Of a stretch of 48,297 nucleotides of DNA, positions 9,046-17,785 are shown in pieces; the stretch's first letter is position 1; every line of letters begins with the position of its first letter. This stretch comes from a virus, in IMG/VR virus record IMGVR_UViG_3300029955_000041, positions 1-48,297 of that record. The stretch is one strand, 5' to 3'. A program made the translations under genes and the position numbers. The notes under the pieces were generated by a model. It saw only the letters and a list, made by a program, of their open reading frames with translations. It did no database searches and was not told where the DNA came from.

Positions 9046-9102
9046 GGGTGCGTAACTCAATGGCAGAGTCTAGTTTTGTGAGTTCGATTCTCACCGCATC
9101 CA
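9046..9102 (+). tRNA. tRNA-like gene lacking the anticodon arm (57 nt)
   Basis: Acceptor stem GGGTGCG (9046-9052) / CGCATCC (9095-9101), D-arm ACTC-AATGGCA-GAGT (9055-9069) and T-arm GTGAG-TTCGATT-CTCAC (9078-9094) are all intact, with a consensus T-loop and the D-loop GG. Where the 17-nt anticodon arm and variable loop belong there are only 8 nt (CTAGTTTT). No CCA is encoded; an A discriminator follows. It cannot decode, so it is either a recent deletion or a tRNA mimic. Own promoter upstream. Confidence 0.8.
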
Positions 9103-9111
9103 CTTCTTTAT

Positions 9112-9330
9112 ATGTCTGTAAATCCTAAACTATCATTCCGACGCGCCAGAAACCATGCGCGATGCGAAAAGCGCAGGGATGCACGCCGTCAAGAGAAGAT
9201 AGACCGTCGCAATGGTAAGAACGGCAATGATGAATGTTATCATTGTGGAAGGAGGATGACATGGTGCTCTTGTTGTGAAATGTATTCTCGTAATTGTTGT
9301 GTAGATTATGGAACCTGTCAATGTTCGTAA
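9112..9330 (+). CDS. Small Cys-rich zinc-binding-like protein, 72 aa
   Basis: Basic N-terminal half (RRARNHARCEKRRDARRQEK) and a C-terminal half with YHCGRRMTWCSCCEMYSRNCC...CQC, eight or more Cys that suggest a compact zinc fold. The gene follows the tRNA-like element by 9 nt and probably shares its transcript. A nucleic-acid-binding role is likely but unproven. Confidence 0.65.
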   Translation: MSVNPKLSFRRARNHARCEKRRDARRQEKIDRRNGKNGNDECYHCGRRMTWCSCCEMYSRNCCVDYGTCQCS

Positions 9331-13571: not shown

Positions 13572-13811
13572 TTATAAAATGCTGCGCGTGGGGAGACTCG
13601 AACTCCCTAAGCAAAGCTGCCAATCTCACGAATCGTTTGAAACTAGCATATCTTGTGCCCTCAATGACCCAACGTAAAAACTAAAATCAAAAGCGGCCTG
13701 TGCCTGTTACCGAGACATCTCACTAGGTTGACGCTTGGACATGACTTTTGCAGCGCCTTTGATTTTAATTCTTTCGTCCGATTTTATTAGGCTCATCGGG
13801 AACCTTTTACT
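13572..13811 (-). ncRNA. Structured RNA 1, about 240 nt, 3' tRNA T-arm
   Basis: On the minus strand TTGCGT (13845-13840), 16 bp and TAAGCT (13823-13818) place the 5' end near 13811. From there: short helix CCGAT/ATCGG, a 17-bp helix with one or two mismatches (13770-13754 with 13695-13679), a 58-nt insert, a D-loop-like stretch and a T-arm GGGAG-TTCGAGT-CTCCC (13607-13591) near the 3' end. I find no 5' strand matching the 3' acceptor. Homologous to RNA 2. Confidence 0.65.
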
Positions 13812-13817
13812 TTCTAA

Positions 13818-13845
13818 AGCTTAACAGTTTTTGCTGGCAACGCAA
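13818..13845 (-). promoter_or_regulatory. Promoter of structured RNA 1
   Basis: TTGCGT, exact 16-bp spacer, TAAGCT on the minus strand; no start codon follows. Confidence 0.65.
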
Positions 13846-13904
13846 GGATTATTTTATAAGTCTTTGAACTTTCTTGCGTTTATCTGCTCTTTCGCGAGCA
13901 TAAA

Positions 13905-14132
13905 TTATTTGATAGTTGCGAAGCTGCCGCCTTCAATGAAAAATGCTTCGTTGCGGTCGCTGTTCCATCCGATGAAGGTATAGTTGCGGCCCTCGTATTG
14001 CAAGACTTTTTTGCAAATCTTTTTAACATCGTCCCAGCCATTCGGAACGTCCAAATGCAAACGGTCGCGCTCGCCCGCGTGCGTAATGTGGCGAACGGGA
14101 ATCAATTTAGGAGCAATCTTTGCGGTAGCCAT
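13905..14132 (-). CDS. Hypothetical protein, 75 aa, leaderless
   Basis: On the minus strand TGGACT (14166-14161), 16 bp, TATTGT (14144-14139), 6 nt, ATG. Sequence ends in YTFIGWNSDRNEAFFIEG. No family recognised. RNA 1 lies 94 nt downstream with its own promoter. Confidence 0.7.
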   Translation of the reverse strand: MATAKIAPKLIPVRHITHAGERDRLHLDVPNGWDDVKKICKKVLQYEGRNYTFIGWNSDRNEAFFIEGGSFATIK

Positions 14133-14138
14133 GAGAGA

Positions 14139-14184
14139 ACAATATCAGATAATATGAAAAAGTCCACAACAATAATCGTGCCAA
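14139..14184 (-). promoter_or_regulatory. Composite promoter, minus strand
   Basis: TTGGCACGATTATTGTT (14184-14168), then TGGACT, 16 bp, TATTGT; the minus-strand twin of the element at 10560. Confidence 0.75.
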
Positions 14185-14196
14185 TAAGCCAGCAAA

Positions 14197-14209
14197 CCGG
14201 GCGGCCCGG
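14197..14209 (+). repeat. 13-bp boundary palindrome, site 11
   Basis: CCGGGCGGCCCGG, perfect, preceded by AATAAGCCAGCAAA, a flank shared with site 23. Confidence 0.97.
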
Positions 14210-14242
14210 ACTGTAAAAGCCCACATATGTAATTCATTTAAT

Positions 14243-14597
14243 TAAACCCGATAGGAATCGAACCTATATCACGGCCATCGTCATTGCCGTCATGGGCTTG
14301 CGCCGAACAATCTTTTCAGATTCGGATGTTGCCTTTACACTACGGGTTTAATCAATAAAGAACTGACTGGCGAGGGTGACAATCCAAATTTGAAACCACT
14401 ATCAAATTTCATGCGCTGTCACTAGGCAAACTTTATCGGCTGACAATTTACGAATCTGTTTGCTTTCTTCTTATGCCGTCTGTCGCTACAGCAGAGAAAG
14501 GCGTTCATTCGCGCTCTCCCCGCCAGTCAATTCTCTATTCCGATTTTAGGTCCAGTCGAAACCGGATTGCAAGGTCATCGGGAACTCGCTCTTAACT
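14243..14597 (-). ncRNA. Structured RNA 2, about 355 nt, tRNA-like 3' domain
   Basis: Minus-strand promoter TTGCAC, 16 bp, TACTCT puts the 5' end near 14597. Features in order: CCGAT/ATCGG helix with an inner hairpin TCCGG-TTTCGA-CTGGA; a 19-bp helix (14539-14521 with 14372-14354) with two G-U pairs; a long insert with a GTGACA...TGTCAC hairpin; then a 3' tRNA-like domain (14349-14243) with acceptor AAACCCG/CGGGTTT, D-arm with GG, a GNRA-capped hairpin instead of an anticodon arm, a GC variable arm and T-arm ATAGG-TTCGATT-CCTAT. Paralogue of RNA 1. Confidence 0.7.
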
Positions 14598-14603
14598 TCC
14601 TAA

Positions 14604-14631
14604 AGAGTATCAGATATTCCCTCGCGTGCAA
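14604..14631 (-). promoter_or_regulatory. Promoter of structured RNA 2
   Basis: TTGCAC (14631-14626), 16 bp, TACTCT (14609-14604) on the minus strand. Upstream lies TTGGCATG-N4-ATTGTT at 14659-14643. Confidence 0.75.
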
Positions 14632-14678
14632 CAAAAATCAAAAACAATAAACATGCCAATAAGACAACAATCGAAGAA

Positions 14679-14691
14679 CCGGGCGGCCCGG
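14679..14691 (+). repeat. 13-bp boundary palindrome, site 12
   Basis: CCGGGCGGCCCGG, perfect. Confidence 0.97.
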
Positions 14692-14702
14692 AGATTGTCC
14701 AA

Positions 14703-14735
14703 GGGGCGTGGCACCGAGGTTTATTGCCACGCCCC
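14703..14735. terminator. Terminator hairpin, probably for the minus strand
   Basis: GGGGCGTGGCA / TGCCACGCCCC, 11-bp stem, loop of 11 nt. Plus-strand side is followed by TTTCT, so it could act both ways. Confidence 0.75.
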
Positions 14736-14744
14736 TTTCTGCAC

Positions 14745-15000
14745 TTGGCGCAAGATTCCAAGATTTTCGCACCTAGCTTTTTTCTTATATCCCTTGCGCT
14801 CGCAAGGTTTAAGGTCGCTCTTCTTTCAGCCAGCGCGTTTTAGGATTTTGACGCGCTGTGAGCCTTTTACTTCTTTCGCTCCCTTAGATAGCTACTGCGC
14901 TCCGCAGACTATCCTACAGGGTGACATCTAGCCGAATGTTGATGGATACTCCATAGTTACATTTAAAAGTTGAATCTCAATTTATATTCTAAGTGCCAAC
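14745..15000 (-). ncRNA. Gene-free, hairpin-rich stretch (possible 3' UTR RNA)
   Basis: No coding frame is convincing here. Three stable hairpins occur: CCTTGC/GCAAGG (14792-14807), CAGCGCGT/ACGCGCTG (14831-14858) and GATAG..CTGCG/CGCAG..CTATC (14887-14913). It lies downstream of the minus-strand gene at 15022-15228 and ends at the terminator hairpin. A GAAGTAAAAGG word resembles the 5' ends of RNA 1 and RNA 2, but there is no T-arm. Confidence 0.4.
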
Positions 15001-15465: not shown

Positions 15466-16032
15466 CTAGTCAATCTTTAATTCGGCGCACGCATCGTTAA
15501 CTTGCTGAGTTGCCCGAATCCATAGAGACATATTCCCCTGATAGAGAAACGGAAGTAATTCACGAATCTCCCGTAGATAGGTAACGGCAAACCCTTGCGG
15601 GTCATTCTTCACGATGTCAGCCGTATTCGATATACAGTCAGCGAGTTTCACGGTCTGAGATTCGGGCGCTGTCAGACCTAAACGCTCACATTCCTTTCGC
15701 TTGCGTGTGGCGCGATTCCATTGGGGGTATGCTGACTTCGTATATAAATCGGTCAGGTCCAGAACGAATCCAGAAACCCGAGAGCCGAATCTTTCCTGAA
15801 TCAGTCCGATGGAATAAAAGGGATTTTCTGGCGTGACATCTTCCGCAAGGTCATGGAGATGCGCGGCTGCGATGACCGCAACGTCATCAGTTACTTGTGA
15901 AACGATACGCGCGACTTCATCAGTATGGTGCCAATACTCGATTCCGGTCCATTTGCGAACCTGCTGAATCGAATCATGTGCTTCATGGGCGAGAGCTTTC
16001 GCGCCTTCGACAATGGAAAGATTTTGCGTCAT
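15466..16032 (-). CDS. HD-domain hydrolase resembling (p)ppGpp hydrolases, 188 aa
   Basis: YWHHTDEVARIV (His35-36), AAAHLHDLAEDV (HD 60-61, ED 64-65), FGSRVSGFVLDLTD and VKLADCISNTADI reproduce the order of motifs in SpoT/RelA hydrolase domains and small alarmone hydrolases (MESH1 type). The length fits a stand-alone hydrolase. It would be expected to remove pyrophosphate from (p)ppGpp or a related nucleotide. Leaderless: TTGACC (16066-16061), 16 bp, TAAATT, 6 nt, ATG on the minus strand. An acting specificity other than ppGpp is possible. Confidence 0.85.
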   Translation of the reverse strand: MTQNLSIVEGAKALAHEAHDSIQQVRKWTGIEYWHHTDEVARIVSQVTDDVAVIAAAHLHDLAEDVTPENPFYSIGLIQERFGSRVSGFVLDLTDLYTKSAYPQWNRATRKRKECERLGLTAPESQTVKLADCISNTADIVKNDPQGFAVTYLREIRELLPFLYQGNMSLWIRATQQVNDACAELKID

Positions 16033-16667: not shown

Positions 16668-16859
16668 ATGAAAATCTTTTCGCTCTTGTGGCTGTTCCCA
16701 TATGGTGCATTTTGCAGCGGTAACACGGAAGTTGCTTGCTTTCGTGGCCTGTATCTGGAGGATGCAATCGACGCTTTTCGTGCGCGGGTTCCCATGTTGG
16801 ACGATTTTGGATATTTGAAGGATGGGGAATTTTCTTGGGTGATTGCCGAAAGCTATTGA
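16668..16859 (+). CDS. Hypothetical protein, 63 aa, leaderless
   Basis: TTGACT (16633-16638), 17 bp, TAGTGT (16656-16661), 6 nt, ATG 16668. Pattern LEDAIDAFRARVPMLDDFGYLKDGEFSWVIAES is typical of small phage proteins that fold around a helix and a hairpin. The TGA stop is inside the next TTGACA. Confidence 0.65.
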   Translation: MKIFSLLWLFPYGAFCSGNTEVACFRGLYLEDAIDAFRARVPMLDDFGYLKDGEFSWVIAESY

Positions 16860-16889
16860 CAATCGCGCCATTTCTGATACATTCTCCTC

Positions 16890-17570
16890 ATGGCTAATTT
16901 CTATCAAGTCGGCGGTTGCGTGCGTGATTCCATTCTTGGCATCCGTTCAAAGGATATTGATTTTAGCGTAGAGGCTGAAAGCTACGCGGCTATGCGTGCG
17001 GCAATTGTGGAGCGTTGCGGCGGCGAGGATGCGATTAAGGTTGAACACGAGGAATTTGTGACAATCCGCGCCATTGACCCAAAACTTGGGGGCGTTGACT
17101 TCGTTTTGTGTCGCAAGGAAGGAACTTATTCGGACGGTAGGCGTCCCGATAGCGTAGAAGCTGGCACGTTGCTGGATGATTTGGCACGGCGCGATTTTAC
17201 GATGAATGCCATTGCACGCGCTGAGGATGGCACGCTCATTGACCCTTTCAACGGCCAAGCGGATATTGCTTGCAAGCTTATTCGTTGCGTGGGCGATGCA
17301 CGGCAGCGTTTTATGGAAGACCGTTTGCGTGTATTGCGTGCAATTCGTTTTTCCATTACAAAGGGTTTTACCCTGCAAATGGATACACGAGCGGCTATCA
17401 GCGAATTTAGCGATTTGCGCGGCGTTTCCGTTGAGCGCGTGCGTGAGGAGCTTTTGAAGTGTTTCGAGTGCAACACAATCGCCACCTTGCAAGCGTTGGA
17501 CGAATTTCCGCTTTTGAAGTTGACTTGTTTTTCTGGCAAGCTATTCTTGAAACCTACTATCAAACCATGA
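16890..17570 (+). CDS. CCA-adding enzyme / poly(A) polymerase head-domain protein, 226 aa
   Basis: GGCVRD (residues 8-13), KDIDF (21-25), LARRDFTMNAIA, DPFNGQADI and FMEDRLRVLRAIRF are the class II nucleotidyltransferase motifs A-D of tRNA nucleotidyltransferases, in order. Normal enzymes are about 370-450 aa; this one stops soon after the neck domain, so the body/tail that reads the T-arm is shortened. It could add CCA to phage tRNA-like RNAs that do not encode it. TTGACA (16856-16861), 16 bp, TACATT, 6 nt, ATG. Confidence 0.88.
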   Translation: MANFYQVGGCVRDSILGIRSKDIDFSVEAESYAAMRAAIVERCGGEDAIKVEHEEFVTIRAIDPKLGGVDFVLCRKEGTYSDGRRPDSVEAGTLLDDLARRDFTMNAIARAEDGTLIDPFNGQADIACKLIRCVGDARQRFMEDRLRVLRAIRFSITKGFTLQMDTRAAISEFSDLRGVSVERVREELLKCFECNTIATLQALDEFPLLKLTCFSGKLFLKPTIKP

Positions 17571-17785
17571 AATGGCAACCAATAGAAACCGCCCCTAAAG
17601 ACGGGACACTAATTTTAGGGTGTTCCGATGGTCCATGGGTAGAATCGTGGGAACAGAGTAGAGCGCCCCAAACTATTTCATTTCGTTCTTTCCATCCTAA
17701 TGCTCCCGGCAAATTACAATGGAGAGATAAAGTCGGCCACCCTGTTTTTTGTAAGTATTGGCAACCATTACCTAGCTATCCATGA
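17567..17785 (+). CDS. DUF551-like protein, 72 aa
   Basis: Starts in an ATGA overlap with the nucleotidyltransferase stop. WQPIETAPKDGTLILGCSDGPWVESW matches the DUF551 signature (W-x-P-I-E-T-A-P-K-D-G). Widespread in phages; function unknown. Confidence 0.8.
   Translation: MKWQPIETAPKDGTLILGCSDGPWVESWEQSRAPQTISFRSFHPNAPGKLQWRDKVGHPVFCKYWQPLPSYP

Follow-up and report, generated by a model that had tools for sequence, protein, structure and literature searches.

The minus strand of a large uncultured phage carries two neighboring structured RNAs with tRNA-like features at their 3′ ends, and the question that this locus raises is what kind of RNA they are. The window analyzed here is the whole 48,297-base IMG/VR virus record IMGVR_UViG_3300029955_000041, which encodes portal, PhoH and baseplate-like proteins; when the portal protein was used to seek a cultured relative, no closer one was found. 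We checked the sequences and coordinates that an initial annotation had given for RNA 1 (13572–13812, minus strand) and RNA 2 (14243–14598, minus strand), and they were correct. Both RNAs proved to be structured as it had proposed, with fold z-scores of −3.65 for RNA 1 (0 of 200 shuffles) and −2.96 for RNA 2, and to be paralogous in their 5′ part.

The alignment of the two 5′ blocks begins at the proposed start and extends through GTTCCCGATGA..TAAAATCGGA..GAATT, covering the first 46 nt of RNA 1 and the first 70 nt of RNA 2. The alignment scored 34.5, against a mean of 20.6 and a maximum of 34 in shuffles, and none of 500 shuffled pairs reached it, so that the shared 5′ end is significant. Within this block each RNA forms a motif hairpin, CCGAU-GAGCCUAAUAAA-AUCGG in RNA 1 (13778–13803, minus strand) and GUUCCCGAU..CCUAA..AUCGG in RNA 2 (14540–14585, minus strand), and the two are homologous to one another and to a copy in another phage, L002 (0 of 1000 shuffles). 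A further common block that had been proposed, GTCARCC..TAGTGA, was weak. A different block, inside RNA 2, is similar to the 3′ portion of RNA 1 (0 of 500 shuffles with stiff gaps, 3 of 500 with looser gaps), which suggests a rearrangement and is only a lead.

Upstream of RNA 2 we observed a candidate third paralogue that the first reading had overlooked. RNA 3 (~14690–14872, minus strand; fold z −4.0) consists of a AAGTAAAAGG box at 14872–14863, an 8-bp hairpin at 14858–14831 with CCTAAA in its loop, and a strong 3′ hairpin. There are two exact copies of AAGTAAAAGG in the window, at 14872 and at the 5′ terminus of RNA 1, and no more than 4 nt after each comes a hairpin with CCTAA in the loop. 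The stems of these hairpins differ: that of RNA 1 is CCGAT/ATCGG, and that of RNA 3 is an unrelated one of 8 bp, CAGCGCGT/ACGCGCTG. With 0–1 mismatch allowed, the combination of box and hairpin had 0 matches in 40 shuffled windows, a figure that is optimistic because the scan was designed after the site was seen. No exact copy of the 5′ leader and hairpin occurred in 2.26 Mb of other loci, and RNA 3 contained no T arm. By its box and loop, RNA 3 is probably a third paralogue of RNA 1 and RNA 2.

Past the motif hairpin, each of the two main RNAs is closed by a long helix whose 5′ arm begins 0–4 nt downstream of that hairpin in RNA 1 and RNA 2 alike. In RNA 1 the arms lie at 13754–13773 and 13676–13695 (20 bp), and in RNA 2 at 14518–14539 and 14354–14375 (22 bp), all on the minus strand. 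These are uninterrupted pairs, whereas the longest helices in shuffles had 15 and 16, respectively, and none of 150 shuffles matched them. The initial annotation had taken the two helices as covariation. They are indeed both present and in the same place, but helices of unrelated sequence show shared architecture only, and the inserts that they close also differ between the RNAs. For conservation of the hairpin, the box and loop of RNA 3, retained on another stem, speak more strongly than do the long helices, which have only their layout in common. Because close relatives of the whole RNAs were not found, the structure of the middle part rests on one or two sequences.

The 3′ end of RNA 2 is a member of the tRNA family. 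Its last 107 nt (14243–14349, minus strand), which begin 4 nt after the 3′ arm of the long helix, matched the Rfam tRNA family RF00005 with 41.0 bits against a gathering cut-off of 29. The 7-bp acceptor, a D arm with GG and a 5-bp T arm with UUCGAUU are intact as in that family, and the cloverleaf lies within 0.8 kcal/mol of the free minimum. Unlike a member of the family, the module has a 37-nt insert in the variable region and a defective anticodon stem, and it is joined to a structured RNA of ~245 nt; ARAGORN rejected it as a tRNA. At the position of the anticodon arm, the initial annotation had seen a GNRA hairpin in place of an anticodon. This is one of two readings, because the tRNA model takes CUGAAAA (GAA), U33 included, for the anticodon loop, the stem of which has an A·A mismatch, and a GAAA tetraloop is the alternative fold. 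The acceptor, D and T arms thus stand, while the statement that there is no anticodon is arguable. Read from the sequence, the acceptor can be extended by about four pairs into its flanks, and such an extension may hinder RNase P.

Much less of a tRNA was present in RNA 1. Both RNAs have 5-bp T arms with canonical loops, of which the window holds four in total against 0.1 expected, and the T-arm search placed that of RNA 1, which is perfect, together with an acceptor-like 3′ strand CACGCGC, at 13584–13607 (minus strand). There is no D arm, the end did not match the RF00005 model, and a search for a 5′ acceptor partner with 6 of 7 pairs found none. An acceptor made with the RNA's own 5′ end was rejected, since it gave only an A-T rich 6-bp helix that was off the acceptor position. 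The 3′ end also had a weak BLAST similarity to the ends of phage tRNA-Pro genes (E 0.4). Of the tRNA-like 3′ ends that had been claimed for the pair, then, RNA 2 has a full tRNA-family module and RNA 1 only a T arm and an acceptor-like 3′ strand. The absence of acceptor pairing between the 5′ and 3′ ends was borne out in both, the acceptor of RNA 2 closing only its own tRNA-like module and the partner in RNA 1 being absent.

A pattern scan of viral contigs found the 5′ motif in L002, a 123.8-kb phage contig, where it lies inside an odd 86-nt tRNA-like RNA between the tRNA-Cys and tRNA-Ser genes of a tRNA array. Beyond the searched pattern, RNA 1 has GCCTAATnAAATCGGrCG in common with this copy, and RNA 2 a GACC..GGUU segment. 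The copy's alignment scores of 35 with RNA 1 and 36.5 with RNA 2 compare with shuffle maxima of 26 and 33 (0 of 1000). The 86-nt RNA has 8-bp matching ends, GGATGATG/CATCATCC, and a weak resemblance to tRNA-Sec (19.1 bits, with a cut-off of 47). In a second contig, L178, which was selected by the last and looser pattern scan and also encodes a CCA enzyme, the motif fills the 46-nt gap from tRNA-Trp to tRNA-Met in an array of 12 tRNAs. This copy is probable and not proven, because a model from which L178 had been left out gave it 17.8 bits (E 0.029). Since the 5′ hairpin is also seen next to tRNA genes in one other phage and possibly in a second, the RNAs look like a small unrecognized family tied to phage tRNA clusters.

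All other matches of the degenerate pattern in IMG/VR were rejected as lying in protein-like or unrelated contexts, and the 38 matches from a scan of genome contigs were chance-like. The model R1 scored 70.8, 63.1 and 53.3 bits on the three sequences from which it was built and had no convincing match elsewhere among the phage contigs on which it was run. Run on whole contigs of CCA-enzyme phages, models R1 and R2 gave only chance matches beyond the known copies, and BLAST queries of cultured phages, made with the motif and with the complete elements, returned nothing informative beyond the T arms.

The surroundings of the RNAs in the record are organized as cassettes. We counted 26 near-identical 13-nt palindromes, CCGGGCSGCCCGG, between 5906 and 23517 of the window at cassette boundaries, against 0.39 expected; their possible roles are in recombination, termination or protein binding, and a scan of viral contigs with the flanking motif found no other contig with such an array. 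RNA 2 alone occupies the cassette at 14197–14679, where no ORF exceeds 40 aa, and RNA 1 lies in the next cassette after a 75-aa ORF. The plus-strand ORFs that overlap RNA 2 and RNA 3 are non-coding by score. A gene for an HD_4-domain phosphohydrolase (15466–16032, minus strand), whose substrates are possibly alarmones, adjoins the RNA cassettes. The record also has a gene for a CCA-adding enzyme (tRNA nucleotidyltransferase) at 16890–17570 on the plus strand (PHROG 24229, E 1e-47; Pfam PolyA_pol, E 1e-23).

Both RNAs had been credited with promoters of their own. A generic sigma-70 scan missed both of them and called 3 promoters against 3.0 in shuffles. The proposal has support for RNA 2 only, in the likeness of its upstream region to the promoter modules of neighboring protein cassettes (82% over 38 nt and 75% over 32 nt). 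The candidate promoter, TTGTTG-N17-GATACT at 14606–14634 (minus strand), belongs to this module type, with repeat families D2/D3 shared with the regions upstream of ORFs 14132 and 15228. The promoter of RNA 1 is weak, and no terminator-like site was called at the ends of the RNAs.

Other tRNA-like RNAs occur on the record and in related phages, the loci of which we collected through matches to the CCA enzyme. At 9046–9102 on the plus strand is a 57-nt tRNA-like RNA (RF00005, 41.3 bits) with no anticodon arm and with G3:U70 and A73, the alanine identity; a descriptor search for this type of RNA had 0 matches in 1.57 Mb of shuffled sequence. It ends 9 nt ahead of a 72-aa Cys-rich basic ORF (9112–9330). 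Across the related loci and the window, 49 T arms lay outside ARAGORN calls, compared with 3–6 in shuffles of the relatives. A long structured stretch replaces the anticodon arm in two tRNA-family matches, L142 101–213 (minus strand, 113 nt, 58.1 bits) and L143 101–214 (minus strand, 114 nt, 54.5 bits), and two matches in CCA-enzyme phages are too short for a normal anticodon arm (L052 11320–11382, 63 nt, 41.7 bits; L126 15477–15533, 57 nt, 36 bits). In L074 a pistol ribozyme match (16818–16871) precedes, by ~650 nt, a tRNA-like element of 172 nt (17529–17700) whose 7-bp acceptor is perfect. In L123 a GOLLD RNA match (487–954) encloses a tRNA-family match (554–618) within a tRNA array. Genes like tmRNA, with matching ends and T arms, were seen in L106 near 18856 and in L078 near 1278 (plus strand).

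The initial annotation knew of no named family that fits these RNAs. This remains true of the whole RNAs, which matched no tmRNA or other family in Rfam at E≤10 or with ARAGORN, while the 3′ module of RNA 2 does match a named family, that of the tRNAs. Readings as a group I intron or a retron were rejected, as there was no Rfam match. Published work places GOLLD and ROOL in the vicinity of tRNA islands and describes tRNAs that sometimes lie in the GOLLD linker (PMC12286853). RNA 1 and RNA 2 fit the same habitat, that of structured phage RNAs beside tRNAs, but GOLLD and ROOL are much larger and have a different structure, and neither gave an Rfam match in the window, whereas L123 gives GOLLD.

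The resemblance to tmRNA that had been noted lies in the order of parts, a 5′ domain followed by a long closing helix with its insert and a 3′ T arm, and RNA 1 has in addition a short frame, MSKRQPSEMSR, that ends in a stop. The resemblance fails on the lack of acceptor pairing across the ends and of any tmRNA match. Moreover, position 3:70 of RNA 2 is A:U and not G:U, RNA 2 has no frame comparable to that of RNA 1, the two have no tag frame in common, and recognizable tmRNAs are present in related phages. A translation-rescue RNA of this sort is already largely refuted, and we regard it as very improbable. Bacterial Y RNAs of the YrlA type also combine a long stem with a tRNA-like domain, and the long helices might on that basis bind a Ro60 protein. 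The modules of YrlA come in a different order, no Rfam match was obtained at E≤10, and no TROVE/Ro gene (PF05731) is on the record, itself a fragment, so that we give this reading hardly any credence.

The main rival reading is that RNA 2 is an ordinary diverged tRNA gene, with anticodon GAA and a long variable region, behind a structured leader, that RNA 1 is a more decayed copy, and that the tRNA part has no role in a non-coding RNA. The tRNA model does align an anticodon loop in RNA 2, and imperfect tRNAs abound in large phages, as the T arms beyond ARAGORN calls indicate. A decaying gene would not be expected to keep its acceptor, D and T arms intact, a 37-nt insert is unusual for a GAA tRNA, and the anticodon stem is mismatched and has a more stable tetraloop alternative. 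Together with the rejection by ARAGORN and the retention of the 5′ block between paralogues and across phages, these points make a plain tRNA origin a serious but rather unlikely account. Alternatively, tRNA mimics with an altered anticodon or none could serve as a decoy or sink, either for host defense or stress nucleases that target tRNAs or for tRNA-modifying enzymes. The 57-nt RNA without an anticodon arm and the replaced arms in L142 and L143 would agree with this, as would the proposal that loop changes let phage tRNAs evade anticodon nucleases (PMC10264068). Bait for an anticodon nuclease should nevertheless retain an anticodon loop, RNA 1 does not have a full elbow, and the 5′ motif and long helix are left unexplained; we therefore consider a decoy role unlikely.

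The explanation that we prefer, tentatively and at somewhat less than even confidence, is that RNA 1 and RNA 2, and probably RNA 3 as their sibling, are phage non-coding RNA genes assembled from tRNA parts together with modules that move along with the tRNA clusters of phages. Each RNA opens with the conserved hairpin, followed by the long helix that closes a variable insert, and RNA 1 and RNA 2 finish in a tRNA elbow module. RNase P, 3′-end nucleases and CCA-adding enzymes read a tRNA by its acceptor, D and T arms, and it is these parts that RNA 2 keeps intact. Elbow and acceptor may thus be read by enzymes that ignore the anticodon, namely host RNase P, 3′-trimming nucleases and the phage CCA enzyme, and these would set or protect the 3′ end of the RNA. 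In RNA 1, with only part of the tRNA module, protection might come from structure alone. The specific function would reside in the 5′ hairpin and insert, which might bind a tRNA-handling factor of the host or the phage in the course of infection. What the sequence establishes is the anatomy, the homology of the 5′ motif among RNA 1, RNA 2 and the L002 gene, the place of the RNA 2 module in the tRNA family and the gene for the CCA enzyme; for both RNAs we infer transcription, processing, function and targets. Plant-virus tRNA-like structures and the tRNA-like 3′ processing signal of MALAT1 likewise use a 3′ module for end formation and not for decoding; the analogy is only to the proposed mechanism, as they have no sequence or lineage in common with the phage RNAs.

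A broader generalization, which we put forward as speculative and on balance doubtful, is that these are a new class of phage RNA, made by the fusion of tRNA elbow modules that have no working anticodon to a conserved 5′ hairpin that accompanies tRNA clusters in phages not otherwise related. Such RNAs would be matured by tRNA-processing enzymes and may serve as stable regulatory or counter-defense RNAs. Large phages carry kilobases of tRNA clusters, alongside which lie structured RNAs of unknown function such as GOLLD and ROOL. A smaller family, with a motif in common with tRNA-like genes and an end made of a tRNA module, would provide a testable handle on the non-decoding RNAs in these clusters, and would point to a body of tRNA-derived phage RNA that escapes standard tRNA finders and Rfam.
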